A DNA stretch of 64,000 nucleotides from Dacryopinax spathularia (lineage: Eukaryota > Basidiomycota > Dacrymycetes > Dacrymycetales > Dacrymycetaceae): assembly GCA_037974965.1 (NCBI GenBank), contig JBBPFI010000003.1, positions 2,294,001 to 2,358,000 on the forward strand, written 5' to 3'. Numbering within the stretch: the first letter of the stretch is position 1; each line of letters begins with the position of its first letter. Positions 13,235 to 51,590 of this stretch are shown one piece after another. A program made the translations under genes and the position numbers. The notes beneath the pieces were generated by a model that made no database searches, was not told the origin of the DNA, and worked only from the letters and a program-made list of their open reading frames with translations.

Positions 13235-13668
13235 CCCTACTTGTAGACTTGTAGGATGAGGAAGACGGGGCCTGGGACGAGGAGGGTCGGTGAGCGATGA
13301 GCGCCAACGGCAGAGGCGTACGAAATCGGCAGGACTGTAAAATGCTTCCGCGTGGGCCGTGTCATGTGAAGGTTCATCAGCGGTGCGACTCGATCTGGCA
13401 CGGCAGTGGTCGCGATCACCGTTTGGTCTATTACGATATCTCTACTACAGTATGTGGTTTACTTGTTCTTTCTGGGATCTTGGACTGAATGCTTGTGAAC
13501 TTGGACGACTGAGAATTGTTGGCTTGGCTGGCTGGTGACCCGTAACAGATGCTCATTCCCTTACTGTACTCGAAGCCTAGGCGAGCCTCCTTGGCGTCCC
13601 CAGCACGTATACCCGCCGCCATCGCCTTCTTCTCCGCCTTTCGCTCCTCAGTCTTGAGTTCCTTCCGC

Positions 13669-14502: not shown

Positions 14503-14704
14503 CTCGTTTGTCTTCAGGCCTTGAAATTATGGAATCAAGCGAAGGGTTACTGGCGCGTAGGTAGAGTAGTGAGTGTGGATGTGGCGACCTGACCTGCAGG
14601 TGGGCGTGAACGAAAAGAGCGAGCCTTGACAGTAAGGGACTCGGTGGACCTGCACCGGGGCGGACTGGCTGTTGGGTGAGGCTTGCAGATCAGTCTGCAC
14701 GAGG

Positions 14705-14711
14705 TTTTATA
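14705..14711 (-). promoter_or_regulatory. TATA element upstream of secreted-protein copy A
   Basis: Minus-strand TATAAAA about 203 bp upstream of the ATG at 14502; the same element occurs at the same distance in copy B, implying a 5' leader of roughly 170 nt. Confidence 0.5.
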
Positions 14712-15474
14712 GGTAAGCAGAAGACTTGACCCCGGATTTTGCTTTCCAAAGATAGCAACACTGCCTCGCTCTTGTATGTATTAGTCAGTCTCGTCAGCAT
14801 GCCGTAAGAGCATGCGTGGTCAGCCCACTTACAAGAGAGCGCAACGCTCCAGCTTCACTCATTGGAAGGTTTCATCGGCAGCCCACTGTACCGGGAATGG
14901 GATTCAGGCCCGCGGAACATAGTTACGCTCCCGTCCCTTATCTACACGGCAACGGCCCGATGCGACGTGCATTCAACCAGGCGGCTCAAGTTGTCACATC
15001 CCGTCCCTCATTCTCTCATGAGACAGTTGCGCACACTCTGATGAAATAGCTTTGGATGAGCGCGTATCAGCCTCAGTGATGTTGCGGAGCACTGCCCAAA
15101 AGAGGTAGGTCGCGTCAACCGCATTTAGCGAGCAAAGGGTTCTGAACAGGCACGGCAGGACTCGGACGTAAGCCTGCGACGCTCTTCCACAGACACCGAC
15201 GCGGACGTGCAACTCCTGTAGTGCCGGAGCAGAGCCGATCTCGTGATGTACCGCGACGTGGTCATCTTTCAATGTTTGAATCGGTATATAGCATTCAAAG
15301 ACGGAAGCACCACAGAGACGAGGACCGTGCAGTGTTGAAGCTCTACGCGAATCGAGGGAGTGAGACTGATCCTTTGAGAGTACATTGCCAAGAACATGAC
15401 TCCTGGAAATAGTGCGAGACCACCCGAGCGAGAGATGGGCAATCAAAGGGAGAGAAGGGCACCAAATCACCATC
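14712..15474. other. Intergenic: far upstream of copy A, downstream of PPR fragment
   Basis: Sequence nearly identical to 17690-18442 because of the segmental duplication. Short open frames on both strands are shared by both copies, but recent duplication alone explains that; no coding features are visible. Confidence 0.5.
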
Positions 15475-15959
15475 TTACATCTCTCCCAGCGCGCCCCGAG
15501 GACTCGCCTTGAGGCTGTGATCATCGCGTGCTCGACGTTCACCATATGCCTCTAGTTCCTCGTAGACTTGAGGCAGATGGTATCTCGGGGCTGTGACGGT
15601 TTCCTCGGTCGCATTATAGTGTGTTGCGAAGGGTAACAGAACCCGAGCCAGTTCGGCACTCGCCGCTGGTACATCGACCTCCCTCTCCTGTCCCATCTCG
15701 TGCGGCAGAATATCCCTTGCGCGAAAGAACGACTGTTCCGACAGTCGACTTAGGCACTCGAGCCAAGTGGCCCAGTGCTTCGGCGCAACAACGCCTCGTG
15801 CTCGAGCGTTGTTCCAAACATCCTCAGCGACATTGACTTGCTGGTGACGGTCGCAGGCATCCAGCACGTGATGAAGTGCTCCAGCGCTGTATTTGCATTG
15901 GACCGGCAACCCACGCCAAAGGTCCATACCATCCTGGAAAAGGCGCGCGTGGAAGTAGA
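15475..15959 (-). pseudogene. Truncated copy of the PPR-like gene (C-terminal about 160 codons)
   Basis: Matches the C-terminal end of the 846-residue protein at 18443-20983, including DVWNNARARGVVAPKHWATW and the same stop context GALGEM. It has no 5' part: at 15959 it abuts a PHB1 fragment, and the open frame continues into PHB1 antisense sequence, giving a chimeric 176-codon frame. The frame itself is not interrupted. Substitutions are concentrated around 15840-15900, where the protein differs strongly from the intact copy while flanking sequence is nearly identical. Read as a duplication remnant; no start signal of its own is seen. Confidence 0.8.
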
Positions 15960-16527: not shown

Positions 16528-17481
16528 TTAGTCCAGGTCTTTAATGCTGCGACCACGGAGCTTCTTGGCCTCCTTGGCCTCCCCAGCACGTATACCCGCT
16601 GCCATCGCCTTCTTCTCCGCCTTTCGCTCCTCAGTCTTGAGTTCCTTCCGCTCACCGGCACGTTCACCGGCACGTTCGGCGTTCTGAACAGCGGCGATTG
16701 CGCCATGTCCGAGAGGCGATCGGGCAACCATTTGCACGGCAAAATCGTCATCCTCGAGCGAACGCTGTCGCAGCTCCTTGCGCTCCTTGTGCTCGCCCCG
16801 TCGCTCGCCCTCGCGGAAGGCCTTCTGCTCTGCAGCCTTCAGTTGACCGGAAGTAAGGGGTGAGCGGGCGTCCAGATCAATGTCCTCTAGTGAGCGACGC
16901 CACCCTCGGATGCTGTTTTGACGGATCTCGTCCCGATTCTTCAATACCACCTTCTCGGGAGCTCCATAGCATTCCCCGGGCCGGCATGGCGAGTGAAGCT
17001 GGATGTCTTCCGCGTAGTCATTGTCGAAAGACCGGAATTGAAGCGCCTGATCGTTTGCCAGGCTGCGACCCGCCTGGGAATTCTCAGGAGCTGCGCTCAA
17101 CCGCGGGCTCAAGACGCCAAGGTCCCGGGAAAACACCCGTTTGGGTCTGGGACGCTTTAGCCACCAGTACTTCCGGGCTTCCAGTTCCATGTCCTCATTT
17201 TCAAGGGAGCGCTGCCTCCGACTGGGCACGCGCATTTCGCCAACCTTCTTCGCCTCCTTCTGCTCGCCGATCCGCTCACCCGCGCGGAACGCTTTCTCCT
17301 CGGCCTCCTTCTCCGCCTTAGCAGCTCCAGACGTGCCAGGCCCCAGGGGTGCACGCCGGTCAAGATCTGCATCCGAGACGTCTAGCGTCAGGTAACGCGC
17401 TTTTAGCGCAGCATCCCGGGTTGGGAACGCGGCAATGCCGACAGCGAGCGTAGCGAGCACGATAGTTGATGTGAACTTCAT
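16528..17481 (-). CDS. Secreted Arg-flanked repeat protein, copy B (intact)
   Basis: One exon, 317 residues. Signal peptide MKFTSTIVLATLAVGIAAFP (residues 1-20). Three units follow, each an Ala/Glu/Lys/Arg-rich helix opening with (A)R-[A/S]-P-L (about residues 43, 206 and 254) and leading to an Arg-flanked acidic segment: RRQRSLENEDMELEAR (88-103), RRSLEDIDLDAR (195-206), RQRSLEDDDF (238-247), and the terminal RGRSIKDLD (309-317). Between the first two units is a 90-residue stretch with RSFDNDYAEDIQ and the only two Cys of the mature region (CRPGEC). No known enzyme domain is seen. Two-Arg and RxxR contexts before the acidic segments suggest kexin- or furin-like processing in the secretory pathway; this is inference. 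Copy A is its damaged tandem duplicate; 42886-44262 and 24867-25382 are more distant relatives. Confidence 0.8.
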   Translation of the reverse strand: MKFTSTIVLATLAVGIAAFPTRDAALKARYLTLDVSDADLDRRAPLGPGTSGAAKAEKEAEEKAFRAGERIGEQKEAKKVGEMRVPSRRQRSLENEDMELEARKYWWLKRPRPKRVFSRDLGVLSPRLSAAPENSQAGRSLANDQALQFRSFDNDYAEDIQLHSPCRPGECYGAPEKVVLKNRDEIRQNSIRGWRRSLEDIDLDARSPLTSGQLKAAEQKAFREGERRGEHKERKELRQRSLEDDDFAVQMVARSPLGHGAIAAVQNAERAGERAGERKELKTEERKAEKKAMAAGIRAGEAKEAKKLRGRSIKDLD

Positions 17482-17684
17482 CTCGTTTGTCTTCAGGCCT
17501 TGAAATTATGGAATCCAGCAAAGGGTTACTGGCGCGTAGGTAGAATAGTGAGTGTGGATGTGGCGACCTGACCTGCAGGTGGGCGTGAACGAAAAGAGTG
17601 AGCGTTGACAGTAAGGGGACTCGGTGGACCTGCACCGGAGTGGACTGGCTGTTGGGTGAGGCTTGCAGATCAGTCTGCACGCGG

Positions 17685-17691
17685 TTTTATA
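17685..17691 (-). promoter_or_regulatory. TATA element upstream of secreted-protein copy B
   Basis: Minus-strand TATAAAA, 204 bp upstream of the ATG at 17481, conserved with copy A. Confidence 0.5.
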
Positions 17692-18442
17692 GGTAGGCAG
17701 AAGACGAGACCCCGGATTTTGCTTTCCACAGATAGCAACACTGCCTCGCTCTTGTCAGTCTCGTCAGCATGCCGTAAGAGCGTGCGTGGTCAGCCCACTT
17801 ACAAGAGAGCGCAACGCTCCAGCTTCACTCATTGGAAGGTTTCATCGGCAGCCCGCTGTACCGGGAATGGGATTCAGGCCCGCGGAACATAGTTACGCTC
17901 CCGTCCCTTGTCTACCCGGCAACGGCCCGATGCGACGTGCATTCAACCAGGCGGCTCAAGTTGTCACATCCCGTCCCTCATTCTCTCATGAGACAGTTGC
18001 GCACACTCTGATGAAATAGCTTTGGAGGAGCGCGTATCAGCCTCAGTGATGTTCCGGAGCACTGCCCAAAAGAGGTAGGTCGCGTCAACCGCATTTAGCG
18101 AGCGAAGGGGTCTGAATAGGCGCGGCAGGACTCGGACATAAGCCTGCGACGCTCTTCCACAGACACCGAAGCGGACGTGCAAATCCTGTAGTGCCGGAGC
18201 AGAGCCGATCTCGTGATGTACCGCGACGTGGTCATCTTTTAATGTTTGAATCGGTATATAGCATTCAAAGACGGAAGTACCACAGAGACGAGAGCCGTGC
18301 AGGGTTGAAGCTCTACGCGAATCGAGGGAGTGAGACTGATCCTTTGAGAGTACATGGCCCAGAACATGAGCTGGAAATAGTGGGAGACCACCCGAGCGAG
18401 AGATGGGTAATCAAAGGGAGAGAAGTGCACCAAATTACCATC
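17692..18442. other. Intergenic: upstream of copy B, downstream of PPR-like gene
   Basis: Right-hand duplicate of 14712-15474. No gene supported. Confidence 0.5.
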
Positions 18443-20983
18443 TCACATCTCTCCCAGCGCGCCCCGAGAACTCGCCTTGAGGCTGTGATCATCGCGTGCT
18501 CGACGTTCACCATAAGCCTCTAGTTCTTCGTAGACTTGAGGCAGATGGTATCTCAGGGCTGTGACGGTTTCCTCGGTCGCATTATAGTGTGTTGCGAAGG
18601 GTAACAGAACCCGAGCGAGTTCGGCACTCGCCGCTGGTACATCTATCTCCCTGTCCTGTCCCATCTCGTACAGCAGAATATCCCTCGCGCGAAAGAACGA
18701 CTGTTCCGACAGTCGGCTTAGGCACTCGAGCCAAGTGGCCCAGTGCTTCGGCGCAACAACGCCTCGTGCTCGAGCGTTGTTCCAAACGTCCTCAGCGACG
18801 GCGCCTTGCAGGTGACGGCCGCAGGCATCCAGCACGGTGCTAAGTGCTGCACCGCCATATCTCTCTCGGACCGGCAACCCGCGCCAAAGGTCCATGCCAT
18901 CCTGAAAAAGGCCCGCGTGGAAGTAGACGCTCATGAGCAACATCAGAGTTGGCCTGTCCATCTCACGTTGTGCACCGAGCTTGTTAATGACCCGTGTGTG
19001 CAAGTATCGCGCGTGGTCGCCTACGTTCATTGCCGTCGCTGGCAGGAGGTGACCAATTCCTGCTTCCGTTGTACGGGATCGAATGTGATCGCGATAGCGA
19101 GAAAGAAGTGCGTTGAGCGAGGTGAACGTGTCAGATCGGCTGCAGTCCTCCACTAATTTGGGAAAGAAGGTCGCTGGAGGGTAATCGTACCCGGACGGAT
19201 TTGGCAGGTACAGCAAGTACGTAAGCATGCGGATTGGCGACTCCCCCGGATGCAATAACCGGAGTCGATGATAGTATTCAGCCGCAATTTTCCAGTTGGT
19301 CTTGTTTGTCGGCGTAAGAAGTTTGAAGACACTGTGTACCAGCCTTTCCTCCACACGCACACGATGTATCCGTGCTTGTACGCATAGAGACGTAAGACGC
19401 TTTAGATCTCCCACCTTGCCCAGAAAGTAGGTAGCGTGTTTTGCGAAGGTCACTAATGCGAATATTTCGTCGTTTCCGGTGTCGCCGACGTCAGGCCATT
19501 CCACCATATCATAGGCAATGGCGATTTGTGCTGCATTTCGCGTCGATAGCCTCCCACCGAGGTCACCGAGGAATACGAAAATTAGTCCTACGATTGATGC
19601 GTTGCCAGCTCTGGAGATCTTGAGCCGACTCGCGCGGACGAGGTCGAGAGCGTCGTCGATTCGATCATCCACCAATCGAGCCTCGTCCGCTAAACAGGCG
19701 TAGACCTTTAGCCACAGTGCGAGTGAGGATAGCTTGCCTCGTTTCGGACCGTCCGTGTTGGATAGGTCAGGAAATGACGCGCATACAACTCTGTGTGTTT
19801 GCGGGTCCATCCGCCACCCTGCTGTTTTCATTCGGTGCAGATGTCCAAGGGCGCGGCCTCGATTGCCTTGCATGGTGTCGAACATCAGGAGAGCATCGAC
19901 CGCCAGCGGGGTCATAGGTCGTTCTTGCAAGCTGTTTTGAAGAGCGAGCCAGGCTTCATCCGAAGCGACACGTGTATCGTAGAGCAGGCGATATCGCAAG
20001 TGCAAAGCGCGCAAGTCAACACTCCATATCGTGGGCCTGCTGGACAGATGTTGGAAGGTATGATTCAATTCTTTTCTTGGAAGCGGGGTGCATTGGAGGA
20101 GATGGTGAATTAGGCGTTGGTAGAATTTTGCCGTAAGAGGTATCGACAGCGATTGCGCCACGGTCGTAATCTTCCACACGGCCATTCGGTCAGGGTTGTG
20201 TCGTCCACAGTGGATCAACAGCCTCGACCAGATCTCTCCATCTCGCGCCGACGTGTGCACCTCCTCCTCGTCCATAGAATCATTGTCTGGATCTGCAAGA
20301 CGCCTTAACAGCTCCAACGCATCGTCCCACCTCTGCAACATGGACATTCGTAGTAGCACGGCGTGAAGATGCGACACAGTGCCCAGGTGTGGCGTACGCA
20401 ACCATATCTGCTCGAGGTCCTCGTCAATGCGTGCCGCTAATTGGGCTGTCTTCAGATTTGATGAGCGACACCAGATTGCAGCTTCGAGGACCAATGCCAG
20501 CCGTGGCAGCCCAGCCAATAGTATGAACTGGGAGGGATCCTGCTCTCTGACAGATAGACCTCGAACATACGAATCTCGCAATGCATCATAGGCCTTCTCA
20601 ATTGAGGCCAGATCATCACCGGCGTCTAGCGCTATTCCGAGGTTACGGTATGTCGAGCGTTGGGCTCTGGAGTGTATAGGTGGACCCATTACACCGTCTA
20701 CCCATTCTGTGTAAGAAAGAGGTGCAGTCCCGTGTGGAGCTCGGTGGTAAGGCGAGGGGAGACTGCTGGAGGTCCTATTGAGGCTCGCATCGACATTTAT
20801 CACAGGTGGATCGGGGAAAGAGGGGGCGGTGGAGTTCCTTGAGACCGTCCATCTTGGAAAGTTCTTCGGGTAATTGGAGGTCTGCAATAATCGATATGGG
20901 CCATCAACCAACGCGCGCAGGTGGGCAAATATAAGACGTACGCTAGTCGAGCTTCTCACGCGCGACCTCCATGCTGCTATCAT
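18443..20983 (-). CDS. PPR-like helical-repeat protein, probably mitochondrial
   Basis: Uninterrupted 846-residue frame. The first 50 residues are rich in Arg, Ser and Leu with no acidic residues in the first 25 (MIAAWRSRVRSSTSVRLIF), as in a mitochondrial targeting sequence. The remainder is almost entirely helical with PPR-like spacing, for example WLKVYACLADEARLVDDRID, ALSTVLDACGRHLQGAVAED and WLECLSRLSEQSFFRARDIL. I cannot assign it to a named orthologue; fungal proteins of this type typically bind mitochondrial RNAs. It is the intact source of the truncated copy at 15475-15959 and contains the right breakpoint of the tandem duplication. It lacks introns, unlike most genes in the window. 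Confidence 0.65.
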   Translation of the reverse strand: MIAAWRSRVRSSTSVRLIFAHLRALVDGPYRLLQTSNYPKNFPRWTVSRNSTAPSFPDPPVINVDASLNRTSSSLPSPYHRAPHGTAPLSYTEWVDGVMGPPIHSRAQRSTYRNLGIALDAGDDLASIEKAYDALRDSYVRGLSVREQDPSQFILLAGLPRLALVLEAAIWCRSSNLKTAQLAARIDEDLEQIWLRTPHLGTVSHLHAVLLRMSMLQRWDDALELLRRLADPDNDSMDEEEVHTSARDGEIWSRLLIHCGRHNPDRMAVWKITTVAQSLSIPLTAKFYQRLIHHLLQCTPLPRKELNHTFQHLSSRPTIWSVDLRALHLRYRLLYDTRVASDEAWLALQNSLQERPMTPLAVDALLMFDTMQGNRGRALGHLHRMKTAGWRMDPQTHRVVCASFPDLSNTDGPKRGKLSSLALWLKVYACLADEARLVDDRIDDALDLVRASRLKISRAGNASIVGLIFVFLGDLGGRLSTRNAAQIAIAYDMVEWPDVGDTGNDEIFALVTFAKHATYFLGKVGDLKRLTSLCVQARIHRVRVEERLVHSVFKLLTPTNKTNWKIAAEYYHRLRLLHPGESPIRMLTYLLYLPNPSGYDYPPATFFPKLVEDCSRSDTFTSLNALLSRYRDHIRSRTTEAGIGHLLPATAMNVGDHARYLHTRVINKLGAQREMDRPTLMLLMSVYFHAGLFQDGMDLWRGLPVRERYGGAALSTVLDACGRHLQGAVAEDVWNNARARGVVAPKHWATWLECLSRLSEQSFFRARDILLYEMGQDREIDVPAASAELARVLLPFATHYNATEETVTALRYHLPQVYEELEAYGERRARDDHSLKASSRGALGEM

Positions 20984-26139: not shown

Positions 26140-28482
26140 TCACATCTCAAAGCTAGGCATATGTTCGATGAACACATTCATCTGCGCGTTGGTGTAAGCA
26201 CACAACATCGGGTATACCTGAGTACATTCGCTCACCGGCTTCACACGGAAATCGTCCCGTCGGATAGTATTGTTGACAATCCCAAACTCCATCATACGCC
26301 CATCCTCGCCATACTGAGGCCAATAGGGCAGACCTACAGCACCAGTAAAGTTGCCGTAGTCGTTAGGGTCCAGCGTATTGGCGAAAGAGATCCAGGCGGC
26401 CATCATTTGCGTGGATAGAGGATCATCTGTCGCTCCGAAGACATAGGGCACTTCGGAGCCGTGGAAGGAGCCGAGGTAGGGAAGGTCGGAGAGGTGGGAG
26501 AAGTGGTACGCCCATACAGGCAGACCGTCGCGTGCTAGTGTTTGGGACACGAAGCGCCGGGGTGCCTGGAAACAGGATCAGACTACGATCTGGATAGGGA
26601 TAGAATGGAAGTCGAACGATAAAGATCGCATCTCCAAGTAGGGTGGAGATCTAGGTGAATTGCATTATGAGTACGGCTCTAGTATTCGGCGAAATCGCGC
26701 ACTCGCTTGCTTTCGGGAGTGTAGGAGTACACTTCAGATACCGTCAGGACAGCATTCACGTGATTGATAGCCTGGGACTTACGGTCTCCAGTTCCAAACG
26801 GACAGCCATCAGCCGGGTCGCTGGGATACTCCAGGAGCACTTCGTCATGGACTACCGGTCCGTCAGTATCACTTCTGCTCTGCAGGGAGATCTAGCGCAC
26901 CAGATGGCAACATCCAAGGCCAGACCGCTGATGTCCATTCGCCCTCAGTCTCTTGACATTGGGATTCTGAGGATGAACACACACCTTGAACGTAGGATGA
27001 GAAGTCTGCATCCGTGGTAACATTGAGCGAGCTGAAGCACCAGATACTCCCTTCGTCCTCATTTTCACCTATGAGGACGGGAATGTGGGTGAAACGACCC
27101 TCCCTGACTGCATGGAGTGGTCAGTTGAAGGTTGCGCAGACGGACGGCTAAATTAACGCACATAGCTTGTGTGGGAAATCCACAAGTGTCGAGTTGTCGA
27201 TCCTCGGTAAATAGGCTGCCGCAGGACCGCGGTATGCTGTCTCATAGTTCGGCGTCTCCTGCACTGCATTGTAGAACTGCTCGAATGGGAGTGAACGCAA
27301 GCAGTCGATTTTGTCTGGTGCTGAGGCACATCCGGTAGCATTGGTGAGTTCGTCGAAGATAGACTGCCCAATCGCCATTGGTCCAACTAAGCTGGGTCAG
27401 CTCCGCTTTTTCTTGGGGGAATATTAGGAGCGCACACGGGTAAACGGAACCGCTCTCCATAATCGCGGCCCGGAAGAGCCCGTTAGGGTTCCCGTCGTCC
27501 ATGATCATCTGCAAGGCAATGGAAATCGCGCCAGCGGATTCGCCCATAAGCTAACAGAGGCAGGTCATTTGAGTCTCCACACAAGCGGAGGATTTGAAAG
27601 ACTGACCGTGACCTTTGATGGGTCTCCTCCAAAGTTCGAGATGTATTTCTGAACCCACTGCAGGGCGGCTCGCTGCGTACACGTCAGCGACAAGTTGTAG
27701 GATCATTTGCAGTCCAACCTGATCCAGTAGTCCCAGATTGCCGAGCCCCTGGTCCTGTGCCTCTTGACCAGGAAGCCAGCCCCATGCAGACAAGCGATAA
27801 CTGACCACCATCAGTTGGGCTTTATTTCGGCTCGAACAGTACACTCACTTGCCAATCACTATTATTACGTCTTGTCCCATTTCTATAGATTGGCTAACCA
27901 GCCCAGTACCGTCGTATATCGACGTCCCGCTGGTCGCGAAACCGCTCTGTCGGCCTGTTAGAAGACCGTTGTCTGGTGATTCGATTCCAACGCACCCCGA
28001 AAACGTAGTATATGACTGGAAGCATGGAGGAAGGTGTAGCAGTGCTCGGACGATAGACGTTGAGATATCTTGTGAAAGATCAGGCTCAGACACGGTATAT
28101 GACAATAGACGACGTACAGGCAGTCCTCGTGGCCTGTCTCCACCGGACCGGAAAGCATGTTTAGAAGGCTGGTGTAGTTTGCCAACTGTGGTGGAAGTGA
28201 CATTCCTCCTACAGGATTCTGCTGTGGACAGTCGCTGGGTATCGTGGTAGCGTTCTGCACGACCGAACCATACTGCACGGTGATGGGCTGAGGCTGACGA
28301 AGGCGGTTTGTTCCAACAGGCGGAGCCGCAAAGGGAAGACCAAGAAATGAGTCTGTACCGGTCGTGGTATTGGTCAAACCCCGGAAGATACCAAAGTCGA
28401 GCGTGACGATAGGACCAGTCGGGTCAGAGATTGTCTGGCAGCACCCAAGGAGCGCAAAGGCGAGAGCGAAACAAACAAGCAT
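26140..28482 (-). CDS. Secreted type-B carboxylesterase/lipase 1
   Basis: Thirteen exons: 28482-28118, 28068-27996, 27946-27849, 27800-27719, 27672-27607, 27550-27436, 27386-27162, 27107-26985, 26927-26901, 26851-26783, 26731-26703, 26650-26618, 26565-26140; 576 residues. Signal peptide MLVCFALAFALLGCCQ. Family blocks: DSFLGLPFAAPPVGTNRL, DCPQQNPVGG, EDCLYLNVYRP, YRLSAWGWLPG, NLGLLDQRAALQWV, the nucleophile elbow LMGESAGAIS (S233), the acid region GENEDEGSIW and the His region SFHGSEVPYVFG. It hydrolyses esters outside the cell; substrate not predictable. The exon pattern is almost identical to that of carboxylesterase 2 downstream, so the two arose by duplication. Confidence 0.93.
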
Positions 28483-29506: not shown

Positions 29507-31789
29507 CTACGGTCCACAGGTGGCGCAGAACGAATTTACCGGTTCAACGCGGAAGTTGTCCGAGATAATTGTGTTGTTCGTAATGCCGAATTCCATCAAA
29601 TTTCCTTGTGCTCCATATTGCGGCCAATAAGGCAGTCCTTCCGCGCCGGCGAAGCTCCCATAGTTGTTAGGATCCAGCGTATTCGCAAAAGAAATCCAGA
29701 GCGCCATCATCTGCACGGATAGAGGGTCGGTGGTTTCCCCAAAGACGTATGGTACTTCTGAGCCGTGGTACGACCCGAGGTAGGGAAGCTCGGAGACGTG
29801 CGAAAAGTGATACGCCCAGACAGGTGTCTCGTCCTTGGCGAGCTTTTGGGCGACAAATCGGCGGGGAGCCTAGAGAGGAGTCAGCTCGGGTTTAGTAGAT
29901 TGGTGCTGATGACTGACTATAAATATGGCATCCCCCAGTAATGCGGCGATCTACGGATAGTTATCAGGTACGATGTACACCATTACATCGGCTAACGCAC
30001 CCGCTTGCTTTCTGGTGTATATGAATATACTGATGAACTTCAGAATACAATCTTTCGTGGAGAAGCAAGGGAACTCACGATCCCCACTACCGTAGGGACA
30101 ACCATCGGCCGGATTGTCCGGATACTGCTCCAACACCTGGTTATGGACTACTTTCCGTCAGGATGTTTCCGGAAGAATGCAATGCCTAAGCCATACCAGA
30201 TGACGGCATCGAAGGCCAGAAAGCTGGAGACTAAGTCAACATACGGGTAAGACCCCTCGAGAGGGCTTGACCTACACTGAACGTAGGACGAAAACTCCGA
30301 GTCGTTCGTCACGTTTAAGGACGTAAAGCACCATATACTTCCTTCATCCTCGTTTTCACCGAGTAATACAGGTACTTTTGCAAACCGTCCTTCGTCGTCT
30401 GCCCAACTTCATCAGCTGAACAGCTCCAAAGATAACCGAGAACGACAAAAGATACTGACATAGATTCTGCGGCGAGTCGACGATCGTCGCGTAGTCCACC
30501 CTGGGAAGATAGGCTGCTGCCGGACCTCGGTACGCAGTAGCGGAGTTTGGCGAGTTCTGGACCGCGTTATAGAACGTCTCGAAGGGCAAAGCGCGGAGGC
30601 ACTCGATCTTGTCGTACGCTGTCGAGCAACCGGTGGAATTGACGATCCCGTCGAAGATATCTTGGCCGTTACTCATCGGTCCGACTGCACTTCTATCAGC
30701 TGGAACGTTTTTTCGGGAGAGATGGGTGGACTAACAGGGAAAGACAGAGCCGCTTTCCATGATTGCCGCGCGATAGAGGCCGCCGGGGCTTCCGCCATTC
30801 ATGATCATTTGCATGCCGATCGACATCGCACCCGCAGATTCTCCCATGAGCTTCAGTGTCCCATTAGCTTTTACTCAAACACAACAGAATCAGAGAGCGA
30901 CGAACAGTGACTTTTGATGGATCTCCTCCAAAGTTTCCGATGTACTTCTGGACCCATTCCAATGCAGCCCTCTGATGCAGCAATCAGCAAAGCTAACGCC
31001 TTAGCGGCAGATACAGTATGTATACCTGATCAAGCAACCCCAGATTCCCAATCCCCTCATTCTGCGCTTCCTGCCCTGGTAGCCATCCCCAAGCGGACAA
31101 TCGATAACTGCTACACCTCAGCCAATCTTCCAGCGAGCAAGGAGAGAGCACGTACTTGCCAATGACCATGATGATATCTTGATTCATGGCGATCGATTGG
31201 CTTACTAGGGCTGTTCCGTCGAAGTGGGATGCTCCGCTCGTGGCGAATCCGCTCTGCGCCTAAAGTCGGACGACACTCGAGGGAGTTGTGAGGTACGCAC
31301 CCCAAAGATGAAGTAAATCACCGGGAGCTTGGAGGAAGGCGTTGCCGAGCTCGGACGGTAGATATTCAGGTATCTGGCATATGTTCAACATTGTAAATCA
31401 TGATCTGTGGTAAAAGTAAGAACGTACAAACAGTCCTCATCACCCGTCTCGGGCGTATCAGTAATCATACTACTATAATTCGCCAACTGCGGCGGCAGGG
31501 TCATCCCCCCTACAGGATTCTGCTGCGGACAGTCATTAGGCTGCTTCGTCGCATCTTGCACCTCCTGGCCGTAATGAACGGTGATGGGCTGGGGCTGACG
31601 GAGCCGGTTTGTCCCTACTGGCGGGGAGGCGAACGGGAGACCGAGGAAGGAGTCGGTGAGGGTTTGGGCGTTGCTGGAGCCAAGGAAGGTGCCGAAGTCG
31701 AGGGTTACTGTCGGGCCGGTGGTGGTGGGGATGGATGCCGCTAGGGCGGAAATAAGGGTGGAGATGAGAAGAACGAAGTGGGAAAGCAT
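29507..31789 (-). CDS. Secreted type-B carboxylesterase/lipase 2
   Basis: Thirteen exons: 31789-31428, 31373-31301, 31253-31156, 31107-31026, 30971-30906, 30850-30736, 30684-30460, 30398-30276, 30223-30197, 30147-30079, 30029-30001, 29950-29918, 29869-29507; 554 residues. Signal peptide MLSHFVLLISTLISALAAS. Same motifs as carboxylesterase 1: DSFLGLPFASPPVGTNRL, EDCLYLNIYRP, YRLSAWGWLPG, LMGESAGAMS (S232), GENEDEGSIW and SYHGSEVPYVFG. Exons 2-12 have the same lengths in both genes. Exon 3 could also begin six bases earlier at 31259, adding two residues. The start is the Met directly before the hydrophobic signal; an upstream in-frame extension exists but lies at the TATA element. Confidence 0.92.
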
Positions 31790-37051: not shown

Positions 37052-38349
37052 TCATCCACCCTCCTTCGTACTCGTTGTCCTCCTCGTCTGCCCCGGGGAG
37101 GTCGGGGGCTTGCGAAAACCCGGCAGCGGGCCTCCATTGCCACCTCTAGTACTCCCTCCAGTTCCTGCATTACTCCTCCCAGCAGCCCCGCTCCCGCCAG
37201 GCTCAGCGATCTCCGGCGGCGGCTGGAGGCCGTTCTTCCCCGGTGAAGCGGGCAGATCGCTTGGGAGAGAATTGGAGTTGGAGTTGGAGTTAGAGGGTGA
37301 CCCCACCCTCGCCCGCTGAACCTGCGACTGCATCTCCTCCCAAAACCCATTCGCCTCGTTCATCCTCTGCACTTCCTCATTCTTCGCATCCAGCCATCTC
37401 TGCAACAAACTCGCATTGTCCCTCTTCAAGCTATCGTTCCTAGCGGCCGTCTGGGTCAGCTCCAGCGACAGAGCAGTATTATCGTCCGACAATTCCTGGA
37501 TAAACCTCTCTTTCTCCCTCACATTAAGCCTTGCGGCCTCTAGCTCGCGTTGCACGCGAGCGAGCTCTTCCCGCGTGCGCCGCAGGTCCTCGGAAGTGGA
37601 CCGGAGTTGGTCGGATGTGAGGCGAGAGGTCTCGTGGAGTTCGAGAAGGCGCTGCGCGTTTTGTCCGTGTTTTTTGTACGCTTCGGAGAGCTCGTCGCGG
37701 AGGCGGGAGATTTGGGACTCGAGCGATTGGATGAGGGCGGTGCGGATTGCGTTTCTGCGAGTTGGGGGGAGGGGGGGTTAGTATATGCGTATGTAGAGGG
37801 GAATAGAGTGCAGGGAGGAGGGAGGGAGGGGAGGAGGGAGGGAGGGGAGGAGGAAAGGGGGGGAATGTGGGAAGGGGGAGGGGAGAGGTGGACGTACTCG
37901 TCTCCTGCTGCTCCGCTGGCTCGGGCGGTGTTTACGGCTCGCAATAGGGTTGTGTTCCTCTCTCTCAGGACTCGGGTGTGTTCTGCCAGTCGTCGATCTG
38001 CACCTAGGGGTTAGCATACATCGTTCATTTCACCCACCTCCTTCCCCTTCTCCATTCCCAGCCACCATGATGAAAGACAGGAGGGGGGGAGGGGGGGGGG
38101 ATACCACGAGGGAAGACGTAGGAGGAAGCAGAAGGGCAAGGACGCACACTGCTCAATCATCTCAGCATAAGCACCCTCCCTCGCATTCCTCTGCCTCAAC
38201 AACACCAGCAGCTGGTCCTGCCATTGCACCTGCCCCTGTTGCCCTTGCTGTCCTTGTGGGAGATGAGATGAGGATCCTGCCGCAGACGCCGAGGAGTAGG
38301 GCGGGAACGAGCTAGGTGGAGGGGGGATCTGGAGGTGTGGGGATGCCAT
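37052..38349 (-). CDS. ATG16: Atg16-like autophagy protein
   Basis: Three exons (38349-38148, 38003-37898, 37754-37052) give 336 residues. A Pro/Ser-rich start is followed by the Atg5-binding helix VQWQDQLLVLLRQRNAREGA. A long coiled coil runs from ADRRLAEHTRVLRERN through LESQISRLRDELSEAYKKHG to SLELTQTAARNDSLKRDN, ending in LLQRWLDAKNEEVQRMNEAN, which corresponds to the family motif L..RW..K..EA..MN.AN. A low-complexity Gly/Pro/Ser tail follows and there is no WD40 domain, as in fungal Atg16. Atg16 binds Atg12-Atg5 and localises the complex that lipidates Atg8. It is divergent from YPT7 across 713 bp. Confidence 0.88.
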
Positions 38350-42666: not shown

Positions 42667-42673
42667 TATAAAG
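42667..42673 (+). promoter_or_regulatory. TATA element upstream of repeat-rich secreted protein
   Basis: TATAAAG, 219 bp upstream of the ATG at 42886, a spacing close to that in the two tandem relatives. Confidence 0.5.
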
Positions 42674-42885
42674 GTGAGCGTAGATCCATGCTCTAATCCT
42701 CACCCAACAGTCACTCAACTCCGGTGCCGGTTCACCGAGTTCTCTCACTCCCCTCAACTACTCTTCTTCTCATTCACGCCCACCTGCCGGTCAGGACTTA
42801 CGACACACTCACGCTCACTACTCTATCTACAAACTAACGACCTCTTCTATTACACTACACTTTCAACGCAATCAATACAATCAAG

Positions 42886-44262
42886 ATGCAGCTCACCTCC
42901 GTCGTTGTCCTCGCAACCCTCGCTGCCGGCATTGCCGCGTTCCCCGCTCAGGACGCTGCTCCCAAGGCGCGCTCGCTGACCCTTGACATCGTCGACTCCA
43001 ACCTGGCGGCTCGCGCCCCTACTCGAGACGGCGTGTCGGGTTCCGTCGAGGCCGAGAAAAAGGCAGAAAGGAAGGCGTTCCTCGCTGGCGAGCGGGCCGG
43101 TGAAAGGAAGGAGGCCAAAAAGGTCGGCGGAATGCGCGTCACCGGCCGCAGGCAGCGGTCACTTGACGATGATGACATGGAGCTCGAGACTCGCGCAAGG
43201 CACCACCACAAGCACGGGCACAAGCATGGCCACAAGCATGGCCACAAGCACGGCAAGCATGGCCACAAGCACGGTCACAAGCACCACAAGCAGGCATCTG
43301 CTAACTCTGACTCCACCCCCGCTACCCCCGCTACCCCTGCTACCCCTGCTACCCCCGCTACCCCTGCTACCCCCGCTACCCTCGCCACCGAAGCTGCGGC
43401 CGGTAACGAGTCTTCCCCTGCTACCCTCGCGTCTCCTCCTGCAGCACGCAGCTTCAGCGATGAGTACGAGCTCGACGTCCGTTCTCCAGTGCGTGAGGGC
43501 TCCAGCACCGTCGCTGAGGAAGAGAGGAAGGCTTTCCTTGCGGGTCAGAGGGCAGGCGAGCGCAAGGAGTTCCGCAGGCTCGAGGGAGGTCGGGGCCGCC
43601 GCCAGGGTCGCTCCCTCGAGGTCCGCTCCCCAGTGCGTGAGGGCTCAAGTACCGTCGCCCAGGAAGAGAGGAAGGCGTTCCTTGCGGGTCAGCGGGCGGG
43701 CGAGCGCAAGGAGTTCCGCAAGCTCGAGGGAGGTCGGGGCCGCCGCCAGGGCCGCTCCCTCGAGGTCCGCTCCCCAGTGCGTGAGGGCTCCAGCACCGTC
43801 GCCCAGGAAGAGAGGAAGGCGTTCCTTGCGGGTCAGCGGGCGGGCGAGCGCAAGGAGTTCCGCAAGCTCGAGGGAGGTCGGGGCCGCCGCCAGGGCCGCT
43901 CCCTCGAGGTCCGCTCTCCGGTGCGTGAGGGCTCCAGCACCGTCGCCCAGGAAGAGAGGAAGGCTTTCCTTGCGGGTCAGAGGGCAGGCGAGCGCAAGGA
44001 GTTCCGCAAGCTCGAGGGAGGTCGGGGCCGCCGCCAGGGTCGCTCCCTTGAGGAGCTGGAGAGCGCTCCCGTTGCGCGCAGCTTCGGCGATGAGTACGAG
44101 CTCGAGATCCGCTCTCCGGTGCGTGAGGGCTCCAGCACCGTCGCCCAGGAAGAGAGGAAGGCTTTCCTTGCGGGTCAGAGGGCAGGCGAGCGCAAGGAGT
44201 TCCGCAAGCTCGAGGGAGGTCGGGGCCGCCGCCAGGGTCGCTCCCTGGAGGATCTTGACTGA
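42886..44262 (+). CDS. Secreted repeat protein with His-rich, Thr-Pro-Ala and five 48-residue Arg-flanked repeats
   Basis: One exon, 458 residues. Signal peptide MQLTSVVVLATLAAGIAAFP. Residues 20-105 match the N-terminal unit of copies A/B (DAAPKARSLTLDI, GRRQRSLDDDDMELETR). Next is a His/Lys/Gly tract (about 106-135, repeats of KHGH), then a Thr-Pro-Ala tract (about 145-167). Five 48-residue units follow from about residue 198, each running VRSPVREGSSTV, EERKAFLAGQRAGERKEF, LEGGRGRRQGRSLE. The fifth is separated by a spacer with ARSFGDEYELE, and the protein ends RSLEDLD. The repeated GRRQGRS and RRQRS contexts would suit kexin/furin-type cleavage, releasing many near-identical peptides; this is inference. 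The His tract could bind divalent metals. No enzyme domain is seen. Confidence 0.85.
   Translation: MQLTSVVVLATLAAGIAAFPAQDAAPKARSLTLDIVDSNLAARAPTRDGVSGSVEAEKKAERKAFLAGERAGERKEAKKVGGMRVTGRRQRSLDDDDMELETRARHHHKHGHKHGHKHGHKHGKHGHKHGHKHHKQASANSDSTPATPATPATPATPATPATPATLATEAAAGNESSPATLASPPAARSFSDEYELDVRSPVREGSSTVAEEERKAFLAGQRAGERKEFRRLEGGRGRRQGRSLEVRSPVREGSSTVAQEERKAFLAGQRAGERKEFRKLEGGRGRRQGRSLEVRSPVREGSSTVAQEERKAFLAGQRAGERKEFRKLEGGRGRRQGRSLEVRSPVREGSSTVAQEERKAFLAGQRAGERKEFRKLEGGRGRRQGRSLEELESAPVARSFGDEYELEIRSPVREGSSTVAQEERKAFLAGQRAGERKEFRKLEGGRGRRQGRSLEDLD
43201..43290 (+). repeat. CAC-AAG-rich tract encoding His/Lys/Gly
   Basis: Imperfect 12-bp repeats of the type CACAAGCATGGC, inside the secreted-protein gene. 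Confidence 0.9.
43318..43383 (+). repeat. 9-bp minisatellite encoding Thr-Pro-Ala
   Basis: About seven copies of ACCCC[C/T]GCT in the same gene, varying only at the Pro codon third base. Confidence 0.9.
43477..44248 (+). repeat. Five 144-bp coding repeats
   Basis: Unit starts at 43477, 43621, 43765 and 43909 (exact 144-bp period), then a 54-bp spacer and a fifth unit at 44107. The units are near-identical including synonymous positions. Confidence 0.95.
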
Positions 44263-45144
44263 GCGAGGTGGCGCCTTGAATTCTGTATCTGAAAGTTAGT
44301 GTAACTTTAGTATCGTAGAACCGTGTTGTGTACCAGCCCTGGCCTAGAGAAGAAGAGCAGGAATGAGAGTGGTTCATGGGTCAAATGCTCTGCGAGACGT
44401 CCTTCGATTTAGCCGGCGTTCAGCCAGCGCGGCCCCTCGGGACACAGCACGAAGGACACTCAGGAGTTACATTCGATCTACCAACTGAACTTCCTTGGCG
44501 GGACAAGTACGGGGTACTGTATAATTCAAGCCGCTGGAAATGACAAGCGCGCTACTTCGACACGAGAAGCCAGGCGTTATCGGTTCGACGGAGGCCGCAC
44601 TCATGTATCTGGCGATTCTGGCCCCGACTGCGCACGGCTTCGGTTTAGAGTCGCAAGAAGTTGCCACCTTGGTTTGAGCTAACAGTGACAATCTAACCAA
44701 CGGGAAGAGTTTCAATCATGAACCTGTTAAACTCCCTCAGCGCCAAGACCTTCGGAGTCAGTAATGGTTTCATACTTTATCTGGGGTTGGACGACGTGCT
44801 TGAAGATTCCTCTGTTCAATTCGCCCATAGCATTGCGGGAGGTATGGTCGTGGTTTTCGCCCCATATGTGGAATTGTACAGTGGTATGACTATCACAAGT
44901 TATTGCAATGAGAATGAAGATTCTGACATCGTGTGCCTGTGAATTTGCTTCATCCTCCATGCGAACCCTTTTCCTCGCCGTTGGCAACGAGCAAACGTTT
45001 GCCCTCAGTTTCGGAATATGAACTCTCGCAACATACTGAATGCCACATATCCAACTCGGTGACACGGCTTACGCTCAGAGACCAACGTCTAGTCAATTGC
45101 TCAGGAGTTGAGGAAGGCAGAAGACGCATCAATTTCGTGATGCG
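44263..45144. other. Intergenic downstream of the secreted repeat protein
   Basis: About 880 bp. Open frames are short and without recognisable domains; nothing supported. Confidence 0.5.
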
Positions 45145-46688
45145 ATGTGCGCCCAGCGACCTGCCTCCCTCCAGAGCTCCCCGCCGGTGTACAACTCGGT
45201 GCCCATCTCCACCCTTCCGCTGTATCGCCGTCTCCTCTTTCCTTTACTCCCTCCATCAAGCCCCACTCCTCCCCTCTTCCGCCACGGTACGCCCGAGCTC
45301 GACGTCGTCACGTACGAGCTCATCGCGGTCATCCTACGCTCCCATGTCTCGCCATGGTATACGAGGCTCACCCGCGACAAGACGTTCGTTCCTCAAGTAT
45401 CGGTCATTATCGCCCACCTCTTGCGCGAGGTCGAGCGACGCATTCTTGCCGCTGATCTTGCCCTTCTCGCCTATACGATCATCCCTGCGCTGCTTACCCA
45501 GCATTATCGCGACTACCGAGCCGCTGCTAGCCATCATGCACTATGTGCCTCGACCTCGATCTGCCAAAGCTTCAACGCTCTCCAGCCGCATGTCTCCGTA
45601 GCGCCAGGATTACCCACCGTGAATGAAGAATACCTCAGGCAAATGGTCGAGCGGGTGTTGAACTCTTGTCTGCCCAAGGAAGACTGGGATGCGGAGACCG
45701 AGCGGACGATTGTGAGGGAGGTGTTGGTCGGGCCGGTGCTGGGCAACGTGCTCCCTAGGCTGAGCCAGCCATGGTTTCTGTTCAATCTGATGCTGGGTGT
45801 CTTGGGATCAAAGAGAAGGTCGGGTATCCGGGTGCGTTTTGTACAAGATCTGGATAAGAAACGTTCTGCTCATATCGATTGTAGGGTCAGCCAACCGCCA
45901 AACCGGCCGTCACCTCGACGAGACAGCTACTGGTTCTCCTCATTGGCGTCTTGCACGCTATTACATCCACCTTACATTTTGCTGTCACTTTGCTGCAGTC
46001 ATTGTCACGATTTCTCGCATCTTTGCCTGCGAACAACCAGGAGGAACGCAAGCCTCGGTATTACGCCTCCAATCTGCTCGTTCTGCTCGCAACCGTCTTC
46101 GACTTGCCCTCACGCCTCGTTTCTGAGCTCCTCTTATCTTTATTTTCCATCATTCTCGCTCTCCTCCAACCTCTCCTGGATCGGTGCGCATACATGCCCT
46201 TCATGAGAAACGGCGCTTAACATTGTCACAGCATCCTCTACCATATCCTACACGCGCATATACTGACGGCAAATAACGCCGCTTCTGTTGTGAGACGTGC
46301 AAGCTCGATCCTCTATCCGAATGGCGCTCCTGCTCCGCCGACAGTCGAACCTCCCGCAGAAGAGCAGCTCCGGACCCGCGAGCAGCTGGAAACACGGCTG
46401 AGGGATCTGCTGCCCTATGGCATCGACGCTCTACTCATGGGTCCTACCCCAGAAGCTCGGACCAGCATAGCGAAGGAGATCCTTGCACCGCTCAGCGACG
46501 CGAACTGTAACCTTCACCTCATTATGCGCCTGCTCGACGCTATCCTGCTTACTTTGTTTCCGGAAATCGCCGCTAACGTTCCGACCGTTCCCACCTTCAG
46601 CATTACTGGACCCATCGCCGACGCGACTAAATATGACAGCGACTCGGAGTCGAACAGGGAGGGATTCTCGACGCCGCTTTCGCATTGA
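45145..46688 (+). CDS. PXA-domain membrane protein
   Basis: Three exons (45145-45831, 45885-46183, 46232-46688) give 480 residues. The first 230 residues fit a PXA domain: LDVVTYELIAVILRSHVSPW, IIAHLLREVERRI, IIPALLTQHYRDYR, YLRQMVERVLNSCLPKEDWD and REVLVGPVLGNVLPRLSQPWF. A hydrophobic region (LLVLLIGVLHAITSTLHFAV, then a second segment ending LLALLQPLLD-like) suggests membrane anchoring, and the rest is helical. No PX or RGS domain follows, so it resembles the short fungal PXA proteins rather than sorting nexins 13/14/19 or Mdm1. PXA proteins act in endosome and vacuole organisation and lipid-droplet contacts. Start taken at the first ATG of the frame. Confidence 0.8.
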
Positions 46689-48416: not shown

Positions 48417-49340
48417 TGGGCGGTGAATCCGGATTGTATGAAAATGCGAGGTTTGGCTAGGAGGCGCTTGTATAAAATGTAGATAGAAGAGCCAGGAAGG
48501 AAGGCTATGACATGACCTGTTTTTTATGATGATGTCTTCGCACTTTTTCACTAGCCTGACCGACATGAGCGATAGGGCGACAATGGTTGTCAGGTCCCAG
48601 CTAGTGCCGTTTTGCCCCCGAAACAAAAGGTCGCGTTCTCTGACTGTTCTCTCCTTCCTTGAACCACCAAGTGGTCCCAGGAACTTATGTGGGCGCTGTG
48701 TTCGCGTCTCTTGTTAAGTCGTGACCTGCGCTCACAGCGCCCTCAATCCGTCCACCAGAAGCACATACATTTTACGAATAAAGTCCAATTCATTGAAAGA
48801 TGCTCCCAAGTATTGATGCCCTCTTACCGAAGCTGCACTTACCGGTCTATGAGTCAACCCTGACCCTAACGTAACCAACAATACCCAGCATATGAGACAC
48901 AAACACACACACGCACAAAATCCCTACGATCTTCACCCCAAAATCAAAACACCCTCCATCTTCTCAGCTGGTACATACTCGGCTTAAAGCCTAGCCCCAT
49001 GAGCTGTTTAGAAGTCTGTTACGAATGTGGCGGTTGGAATGTGGGATAAGGTTCTGTCTAAGTTGCAAATGGGCGAATGGAAGCAATTAATGGTTTAGCT
49101 GAGCTTAGCGCTGTGCTTCCGCTCCGTTCGCGGGCCAACATCATTTCGTCGGTTGACTCCTTCCGTCCCCCGCGCCGCCCCCTCCGAACCAACACTTCCC
49201 ATCCCTATCCCTGTTCAGTTGGGAAACAACAACGGGTGTGTGTCGACCCCCTCCTTTACTCTCTACAACTACTACCGTCTTATTACCCACCGCGCTCAAC
49301 GTACAACGACTAGGCGAGCTAGGGACTACGAGAAGCAAGC
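48417..49340. other. Intergenic between F-box and PHD-finger genes
   Basis: About 920 bp; CA-rich stretch near 48898-48916. No supported gene. Confidence 0.5.
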
Positions 49341-51590
49341 ATGGACATGGAGGTCGATGTGGATGGTGGAGACGGCGGCTCGGGAACATGGACAGCGCTA
49401 GAAGACCTCAAACAGCGGATGAGGGAGAAAGCGGGCTGGGTGGCGACCGCACCCGTCCATCCGCTCGCGAGAGTCGACCCCGTTTGGCTGCCCGGTCCCG
49501 CTGTCGGTCCTGGTGGGAGACCGCTCGACCCGAAGGAGGTGGAGAGACGACGATTGTGGCAGCGGTGGTTGGAGAGTGAGGGGAGTGATGCTGATGTTGA
49601 CGACGACGACGAGGAGGATGAGAAGGAGGGTGTGGGCGTGGTTGAGGGTGAGGAGGAGATGGAGGCTAGAGGGCGGGCGAGGGCAGGAAAGTGGGCACTG
49701 GGGAGGGGGAAAAACGTCCCTTTCCCTTCGGCTACCGCTGCGGGTGGCGAGGAAATGCGGCTTTGGGCACCCCGGTCGGCGGACGCATTGCTCGCACTCT
49801 TCTCCGCCACTCGTGCTCGCCGGCGTAGGGCTCTTCGGGCCCTTCGGGCACGGGAAGACTCGCTCAACCTCTCGTCCGCCGCTTCCTCCGAAGATGAAGA
49901 CTCGCACACGAGCGCCGCTGCGACCGAGACGGTCAACTGCGTCTGCGGCAGCGGCGTGGACGACGGGACAAGTATGGTTCAATGCGATAGCTGCGAGTAC
50001 TGGAGTCATATGCAGTGCGTAGGCATGGATCAGGACGAGCTGCCGAACACGTGGTTCTGTCGAGCCTGCGCACGGGCAAGGAAAGGCAAAGGTCGTGCTC
50101 GGGCAGCAAATGCCGTTTCAGCCACTGTCAGCGCTGCTGCTGCTACTCGGTCTACAGGAGGAGCGGTACGAAAGGGCAAGAGCGGCAAGCTGCCCAGGCT
50201 ACGGTCGACGAAGAAGACCACCTCGAGCGGTAAGCACGGCCTCCTTTCTCCCCCTCCAACAGGACTTTCGACAACCCGCACACTCGCACTCCAAGAACCC
50301 AGCACTCCCACTCGCGCCCCGCTGCAACCAGAGCCGACCTTCGTCCCCGCGGACGACAGCGGGATCCACGGTCGTGCCGCCCTGCGCATGAAGGGCGCTG
50401 AGATCCTAGTACCCAGGACGCCAACGCCAAGTATGGGCGGGCCAACACCATGGCTGCATCAGACGCCGACATTCGCTCGCCCAGGCGAACAACCGTATCC
50501 TGGTACTATGGATAGCGCCGGGCACGCTCAGAGGCAAGGGCAGCCGTACGGACCTGGGCGGGGACAGCCACAGGGGTATGGATATGGAGTGTATACGCCG
50601 CAGTCGGATCGGAAAGCGCATATTTACTCCTACGACAACCCCTATACATCGCCGTACGCCGTCCCACCCCCGCTTTCTCCACTCAAGTTCTCCCGCCCTG
50701 GCGACCCCGTGCAACCCAACAGCCGCACATACTACCAAACATCAAAACCACCGCACCCTTCCGAACTGCTCAACTCCCCCGATCCGTCCTCCCGGCGGGA
50801 CGCCTCGCACCCTTACCCGCCCTCCGCAGGCTTAGGACCAGGACAGTACGATTTCGGGAGCACTCCATCCCGTGGACTCAAGTTCGGAGCACCCTTCGAC
50901 GGCCAGGCGGGGCTGATGACCCCACTCGGTTTCTCCGCAGGCCCTGGGTTCGGCTCCAACTCCAACTCGCTGCACGGTCACTCGTATTCCCATTCGTACA
51001 GTAACAGCATCACGAGCTTCTCCGGCTTCTCCGGCCCCCCTCCGACAAAGGGCGCAGGCGCGGGAGGGGAAAAACGCAGGAGCTGGGAGTTCCCGCCCGC
51101 GGCTGGGATTGCCGGCAAGCCGCCGCCTTCCTGGGGCTTGCTTACGCCTGTGGTTGGGGACGACTCGCCCCGGCGGGATCGGGATCGGTCGCCATCTCAT
51201 TCTCCAACTCGTTCGCCTGTGCGAGAAGGCCGACAGGGTGGGAAGGGCCACGCAAGATTACCAAGTTATGGCTTCTCGAACTGGATAATCACCTCGCCCG
51301 AACTGCCGAACCGCACCGCCCCTGTATCAGCAACAGCACCCGCAGCTCCTGGCCAGGCGCCAAATGCATCAAGCATGTCAGAGTCGAAGAAAACTCTGGG
51401 ACTCGGGATACCCCTCTCCATGCCCGGCAGCCTGGGGGCGCCGTTCTCGCTAAGCTCCGAACGGGTGGACCCCTCTGACCGGAATGAACGCGCTGGGGCG
51501 AGGCTGACGAAGGCGGAGAGCGATGAGGAGGGGGATGTGAGACGTGAGTTTGCTCTCGTTTTGCGCGTTTGGAAGGGGGACTGGGACTGA
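49341..51590 (+). CDS. PHD-finger protein (chromatin reader)
   Basis: One long exon encodes 749 residues. The start (MDMEVDVDGG) is the first ATG. An acidic stretch occurs near residues 85-115. A PHD finger lies at about 200-245, with the Cys4-His-Cys3 pattern in CVCGSG, MVQCDSCEYWSHMQC and WFCRAC. A basic region (KGKGRARAANAVS, KKTTSSGK) and a long Pro/Ser/Gly-rich disordered tail follow. PHD fingers of this kind read histone H3 tails, as in Set3/Cti6-like subunits, but I cannot name an orthologue. The last codons may be intronic: a consensus donor at 51544 and acceptor at 51603 would replace the final 15 residues with HMIEQM, ending at 51623 (740 residues). Confidence 0.85.
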   Translation: MDMEVDVDGGDGGSGTWTALEDLKQRMREKAGWVATAPVHPLARVDPVWLPGPAVGPGGRPLDPKEVERRRLWQRWLESEGSDADVDDDDEEDEKEGVGVVEGEEEMEARGRARAGKWALGRGKNVPFPSATAAGGEEMRLWAPRSADALLALFSATRARRRRALRALRAREDSLNLSSAASSEDEDSHTSAAATETVNCVCGSGVDDGTSMVQCDSCEYWSHMQCVGMDQDELPNTWFCRACARARKGKGRARAANAVSATVSAAAATRSTGGAVRKGKSGKLPRLRSTKKTTSSGKHGLLSPPPTGLSTTRTLALQEPSTPTRAPLQPEPTFVPADDSGIHGRAALRMKGAEILVPRTPTPSMGGPTPWLHQTPTFARPGEQPYPGTMDSAGHAQRQGQPYGPGRGQPQGYGYGVYTPQSDRKAHIYSYDNPYTSPYAVPPPLSPLKFSRPGDPVQPNSRTYYQTSKPPHPSELLNSPDPSSRRDASHPYPPSAGLGPGQYDFGSTPSRGLKFGAPFDGQAGLMTPLGFSAGPGFGSNSNSLHGHSYSHSYSNSITSFSGFSGPPPTKGAGAGGEKRRSWEFPPAAGIAGKPPPSWGLLTPVVGDDSPRRDRDRSPSHSPTRSPVREGRQGGKGHARLPSYGFSNWIITSPELPNRTAPVSATAPAAPGQAPNASSMSESKKTLGLGIPLSMPGSLGAPFSLSSERVDPSDRNERAGARLTKAESDEEGDVRREFALVLRVWKGDWD

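Follow-up and report, generated by a model that had tools for sequence, protein, structure and literature searches.

A putative secreted multi-peptide precursor of Dacryopinax spathularia with Arg-Ser borders and acidic spacers, and its gene family

We describe a gene of Dacryopinax spathularia whose product is, in our judgement, probably a peptide precursor cut at Arg-Ser borders, presumably by kexin, with a short acidic unit of the form RSLxELD acting as a processing spacer. The gene lies in a stretch of 64,000 nucleotides, analysed as a whole and called the window below, in which a preliminary description had proposed a secreted precursor of several peptides. That proposal is the best-supported one, and it gains weight from the existence of a gene family, from signs of selection on the repeat and from the retention of the border Arg; the processing is what we infer. 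Missing from the preliminary description were the acidic spacers that separate the modules, the gene family, and the likeness of spacer and tail to the motif RSIDELD.

Results

The gene occupies 42886-44262 on the forward strand, as do all of its parts given below, and forms a single open frame of 458 aa from the ATG at 42886 to the TGA stop at 44260-44262, exactly the locus first proposed. A TATA box (TATAAA, 42667-42672) was located 219 bases upstream of the ATG by a TATAWA scan and alignment, and DNA searches and alignment showed partial conservation of the 5' leader (42695-42885) with both window paralogs and with genes on contig 9. The putative signal peptide (residues 1-18, 42886-42939) is a signal-like N-terminus, MQLTSVVVLATLAAGIAAFP, judged by eye and by its identity to relatives, with a helix at residues 4-17 in the AlphaFold2 model. 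Further on lie a first spacer-like segment, SLTLDIVDSNLAAR (42973-43014), evident in the sequence and missed by the motif used for counting, and module A0 (43015-43158, residues 44-91), identified by its core pattern, KAFLAGERAGERKE, and containing a predicted helix at 51-80. This diverged sixth copy, which shares the GERxGERKE core, was absent from the preliminary description, as was module B (43195-43449, residues 104-188), a His/Lys/Gly-rich stretch followed by PATP repeats for which no confident structure was obtained. Acidic spacers stand on either side of module B, namely SLDDDDMELETR after RRQR (43159-43194) and SFSDEYELDVR (43450-43482).

The five near-identical repeats proposed at the outset were recovered by copy comparison as 43-aa modules starting at residues 200, 248, 296, 344 and 410. 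Module A1 (43483-43611) is followed by A2 (43627-43755), A3 (43771-43899) and A4 (43915-44043), each preceded by the short spacer SLEVR (43612-43626, 43756-43770 and 43900-43914), so that the 48-residue unit described earlier corresponds to SLEVR plus one module. Two back-to-back spacers, SLEELESAPVAR and SFGDEYELEIR (44044-44112), lie between A4 and A5 (44113-44241). Tandem Repeats Finder reported a period of 144 with 4.0 copies and 95% matches at 43471-44053, an array from which A5 is separated by this spacer pair. A comparison of family tails delimited the C-terminal tail SLEDLD (44242-44259; RSLEDLD with the preceding Arg). The protein has no cysteine and no Pfam family over its cut-off, in agreement with the absence of an enzyme domain noted before.

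Searches of the organism's own genome (29.2 Mb, 24 contigs) with the target returned the paralogs W17 and W14 in the window together with a weak signal-peptide match on contig 9 (E 0.05), which led to C9b and then to C9a, C9c, C9d and C9e, five relatives on that contig. W17 (317 aa, 16528-17481, reverse strand) has the same type of signal, four GER-core matches, spacers and the tail RSIKDLD, and carries no near-identical repeat array. W14 (13669-14502, reverse strand), found in the same own-genome search, is a recent W17 duplicate with a broken C-terminal part, the two sharing 93.8% DNA identity over 2377 bases. Both are carried by a recent 2.4-kb duplication (window 13585-15959 and 16568-18927), and a diverged tandem duplicate was seen at window 26264-28407 and 29568-31708, with 65% DNA identity over 2.2 kb.

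Among public proteins, searches with the target and with a four-sequence alignment gave E values below 0.001 only for P0001 of Calocera cornea, P0002 of Calocera viscosa and the partial P0006 of Dacryopinax primogenitus. Because the contig 9 alignment gave no match with an E value of 10 or lower in the 8000 protein candidates scored, the contig 9 genes may be confined to this species, or the word filter of the search may have concealed their relatives. A Pfam scan of nine family proteins yielded no model over its cut-off, and sequence searches of the PDB with the target, P0002, C9b, one P0002 module and the C9c tail gave weak-E matches at most. Most family proteins are 317-599 aa long and have many modules; C9d and C9e, by comparison, have only 189 aa and a single spacer motif each. 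The GER core is present in the target, W17, P0001 and P0002. C9a and C9b hold five and four copies, respectively, of long Ala-rich modules dissimilar to those of the target, the modules of P0002 are His/Ala-rich predicted helices, and P0006 has Arg/Gly/Lys-rich stretches.

The 18-residue signal peptide of the target is identical at 18 of 18 positions to that of C. viscosa P0002, 72-78% identical to those of C9a-C9c and 56-61% identical to those of C9d and C9e, whereas the bodies of the target and C9a-C9c match merely at E 0.003-0.64. TATAWA was found at -186 to -219 in all six family genes scanned, and the upstream DNA of the target and C9a is 85% identical over 52 bases. Leader DNA searched against the own genome matched four places for the target and five for C9a, self included, among the best candidates scored, and all of these places lie upstream of family genes. 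Since leader, TATA box and signal are related while the bodies barely align, the control region and signal have been kept and the cargo differs. The motif CCTGCCGGTCAGG or a close variant (window 42783-42795 in the target) occurs in all six aligned 5' leaders and, with its short self-complementary ends, is possibly a shared regulatory site. A leader hairpin was considered and rejected, as the target leader folds no better than its shuffles (z -0.32, with 70 of the 200 shuffles doing as well).

A candidate distant member of the family was seen on contig 11 near 304 kb (L056:3800-4770, reverse strand), a His-rich, secreted-like gene with PATP repeats and the tail ESLEALD, which by eye probably has one intron. 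Weak genome matches on C5, C14, C3 (near 107 kb) and C9 (near 842 kb) were inspected and dropped; further weak matches fall on C6, C16, C2 (near 746 kb), C3 (near 2401 kb) and C9 (near 1214 kb).

Selection was assessed on the repeat copies, bearing in mind that target copies and paralogs are non-independent units in these statistics. Copies 2-5 (A2-A5) are identical as protein, and copy 1 deviates at two residues. At the DNA level there is no difference between copies 4 and 5, and the 8 variable sites among copies 2-5 are all synonymous (dN 0, dS 0 to 0.29). With 26% of single-base changes and 33% of transitions expected to be synonymous, the probability of 8 of 8 is 2e-5 (all changes) or 1.5e-4 (transitions), to be read with the observation that six of these sites form one block that sets copies 2-3 apart from copies 4-5, and are possibly non-independent. 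The repeated peptide appears to be under selection. Over the first 103 codons, the target and W17 differ with dN 0.22 and dS 1.9; between W17 and W14 a dN of 0.051-0.055 stands against a dS of 0.038-0.049.

The spacers and their borders were counted in eight proteins (the target, W17, C9a-C9c, P0001, P0002 and P0006), a set that does not include W14, C9d, C9e or the candidate on contig 11. Acidic tracts were defined as K/R-free runs of five or more residues with a net charge of -4 or below. The left neighbour of the 53 tracts found is Arg in 51 cases and Lys in 2, and the right neighbour is Arg in 53 and Lys in none, against an expected 56% Arg from the background of these proteins (344 Arg and 274 Lys among 618 basic residues). 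When unique tracts alone are taken, Arg stands on the left of 43 of 45 and on the right of 45 of 45. All but six of the tracts (47/53) start spacer-like, and one of those six sits within a target module.

The spacer motif, R-[SDAG][LFMI][ADEGS] plus a K/R-free stretch, with the hyphen at the putative cut, was derived from the same proteins in which it was counted and occurs 60 times; 51 occurrences span 10-15 residues, and six are tails of 6 residues. The target contains five, compared with a shuffle mean of 0.43, and five were reached in 1 of 2000 shuffles. The motif count was above shuffles in seven of the eight proteins; the partial P0006 has two motifs, a number reached by 61 of 2000 shuffles. 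At the 60 junctions P1' is Ser in 47 and acidic in 7, P3' is acidic in 47 and P4' in 48, where P1'-P3' are limited by the motif itself (P1' to S, D, A or G, and P2' to hydrophobic residues) and P4' merely excludes K and R. Of these junctions, spacer-spacer borders included, 29 have a dibasic pair somewhere in P6-P1, 10 have one at P2-P1, and 24 have a basic P4. The other 31 junctions keep Arg without a dibasic pair within P6-P1, many of these being spacer-spacer or PATP-linker borders. The short spacer SLEVR is weakly acidic. Thus the RxxR and single-Arg sites noted at first in the target hold family-wide across these 60 junctions in eight proteins, although GRRQGR still includes a classical RR.

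The C-terminus follows the same pattern, in that seven of nine complete family genes end in RS[LI]x[DE]LD, a count that leaves out the partial P0006 and the broken W14, while C9d ends in SLELE and C9e in SLELN. The target tail RSLEDLD fits this pattern and differs from the exact RSIDELD, to which RSLDELD in C9c is the closest. A genome scan with the tail pattern gave six matches, against two in a reversed control, and two of the six are the target and C9b; the other four, on C2, C8 and C17, have no family-like ORF and were discarded. As the pattern allows TAA and TGA stops alone, C9a and C9c (TAG) were missed. The scan also missed W17.

The AlphaFold2 model of the target (mean pLDDT 52, pTM 0.20), like the others based on a shallow alignment, here of four sequences, contains six separate module helices, one per A module, with the borders in low-confidence coil. 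The model of P0002 (mean pLDDT 57) shows three helices, each 54-60 residues long, whose block means reach up to 90, and Foldseek of this model against the PDB gave no match at E 10.

Discussion

In the reading that we favour, the target gene would give rise to a secreted prepro-protein in which cationic modules (the helical A and the His-rich B) alternate with acidic spacers carrying Arg at both ends. In the late Golgi a kexin-type protease would cut after Arg, for instance at RRQGR-SLE or KKQR-SLED (cuts at the hyphen), and a second cut would follow the closing xxR of each spacer. The predicted products would be a helical peptide some 43 residues long, in five copies, together with a related peptide and a His-rich peptide; judging by composition alone, the His-rich peptide most likely binds metal. 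Until cutting takes place, the cationic cargo may be neutralised by the acidic spacers, and the released peptides probably act extracellularly. Yapsins are monobasic aspartyl proteases and offer an alternative cutting enzyme to kexin. The own genome gave one match to a P-domain convertase.

According to one study, yeast and fungal kexins favour negative residues at P1', P2' and P4' (PMC2515848); the acidic P4' at 48 of the 60 junctions is in line with the P4' preference stated there, whereas an acidic P1' is seen at only 7 of 60, and the motif itself confines P2' to hydrophobic residues. The preliminary description called for a furin-like specificity. Such a specificity appears dispensable, because cleavage after a single basic residue is reported in two papers: Coprinopsis KEPs made in Pichia gave peptides apparently cut in this way (PMC9769878), and monobasic sites are reported for killer toxins (PMC13211469). 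The target modules do hold further Arg and RK sites besides the borders, and the modules of C9a and C9b hold dibasic pairs (e.g. AAKRVADEEQRR), which count against cutting limited to the borders; judging from these pairs, kexin might also cut inside the C9a and C9b modules.

A rather unlikely explanation is that the protein stays intact, as a wall-associated, metal-binding or polyampholyte coat protein of tandem modules in which the alternation of Arg and acidic residues amounts to charge balance. The His-rich and PATP stretches do resemble structural linkers, and the predicted models contain helices without a globular fold; yet charge balance leaves unexplained both the choice of Arg over Lys at 104 of 106 tract flanks and the Ser at 47 of 60 P1' positions, where the motif allowed S, D, A or G, and the Pfam scan of nine proteins likewise speaks against it. 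We regard as improbable that the family consists of classical Kex2-processed repeat proteins cut at dibasic sites alone, with fragments made of module plus spacer. Cutting the target at KR/RR gives four similar 48-aa fragments, and a four-pair rule gives three or more similar fragments of 8-100 aa in four of the eight proteins (the target, C9a, C9b and P0001). However, KR/RR alone catches two of the eight, four fail every version tried, the conserved GER core of the target is itself split by the four-pair rule, and the 31 junctions without a nearby dibasic pair would keep their Arg for no reason of this kind. The rules applied are a simplified form of those in PMC7329392 and PMC6339444, with a simplified similarity measure in place of the authors' scripts. 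The Arg-Ser rule covers more of the family than the dibasic rules do. Very improbable, finally, is that the acidic RSLxELD unit serves as a signal for uptake or sorting and is no cut site at all. A translocation or signalling role is speculated on for the DELD motif in PMC4620400; a unit found repeatedly between modules and also in adjacent pairs, in most cases directly behind a basic border or a further spacer, fits better with a spacer.

Read as a precursor cut at Arg-Ser borders, the target belongs, broadly speaking, among the Kex2-processed repeat proteins (KEPs), from which its border grammar and its acidic spacers set it apart. With the KEPs of Le Marquer 2019, Umemura 2020 and Vogt 2022 it shares a putative signal peptide, three or more repeats, basic borders and the lack of an enzyme domain, and under the simplified rules it yields 4 similar fragments (KR/RR) or 6 (all four pairs). 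It differs from them in that the family has Arg-Ser borders, about half of them without a nearby dibasic pair, as well as module-separating acidic spacers and differing module types per precursor, and in that four of the eight relatives escape the dibasic rules tried. The main texts of these three papers contain no Dacry-, spacer or acidic wording. In animal skin and venom peptide precursors a conserved signal and acidic spacer are combined with a variable peptide, and in those of the skin the acidic spacers neutralise the cationic cargo until cutting. The present family would work alike, with leader, signal and spacer kept and the cargo diversified, and no homology is claimed.

The tail and spacers also recall the DELD proteins of Serendipita (Piriformospora) indica. 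As described in PMC3192844, RSIDELD is the C-terminal motif of 25-29 such proteins, which are 101-135 aa long, His/Ala-rich and free of cysteine, with one body and one motif, and similar tails occur elsewhere in fungi (43 putative motifs in a reference set, and two Laccaria proteins). The function of RSIDELD is called unknown in PMC3708536 and PMC4620400, and a DELD structure entry, 5LOS, is named in PMC8657640. Like these effectors the target is, by its signal-like N-terminus, putatively secreted, and it lacks both Pfam domains and cysteine, their helical His/Ala-rich body has a counterpart in the His/Ala-rich predicted helices of P0002, and the family tail in seven of nine complete genes resembles RSIDELD. 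In contrast, the family proteins are mostly 317-599 aa long with many modules and repeat the motif between them, and the target, with 458 aa, has GER-core modules and one His-rich module instead of a single His/Ala body of about 100 aa. The PDB sequence searches with the target, P0002, C9b, the P0002 module and the C9c tail returned no DELD match, although 5LOS was expected there, and the likeness rests on the printed motif and composition.

Since RSLEDLD at the C-terminus resembles one half of a spacer, DELD effectors may likewise carry their RSIDELD as a processing tag, which suggests a possible cut at R-SIDELD (at the hyphen) and hence a trimmed DELD tail. A wider proposal, which we put forward tentatively and hold to be possible though doubtful, is that of a dacrymycete superfamily in which promoter, leader, signal, Arg-bounded spacer and usually the tail would be kept while unrelated cationic modules are swapped, and in which the RSIDELD of the DELD proteins would be the end copy of such a spacer, lost from the mature effectors. 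A literature search, with most subscription journals outside its scope, found no paper with the forms RSLDELD or RSLEELD and none on such proteins in Dacrymycetes or Calocera. If true, the reading would extend fungal peptide precursors to an Arg-Ser-border, acidic-spacer design that dibasic-based genome mining partly misses, and would reduce the role of RSIDELD in root-colonisation effectors to a question that mass spectrometry can readily address, namely whether the tail is cut off after Arg.

Near the target, ORFs at 37055-37777 (reverse strand), 45112-46203 (forward) and 49323-51587 (forward) had ATG16, PXA and PHD-finger matches. The remaining seven of the ten ORFs scanned matched nothing in Pfam at E 0.001, so the surroundings of the target show no evident biosynthetic cluster. 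The precursors of dikaritin (ustiloxin-type) RiPPs likewise have a signal peptide, repeated cores and basic borders, but their cores are short and cyclisable, while the target modules are 43-aa predicted helices. A dikaritin reading was ruled out because no UstYa (DUF3328) gene on contig 3 was among the matches listed, which included at least one on contig 2 and at least four on contig 6. Those on contig 6 are clustered at 1456-1474 kb, two of them with a stop codon inside the matched stretch in what was an intron-blind search, and this group is a possible RiPP cluster.
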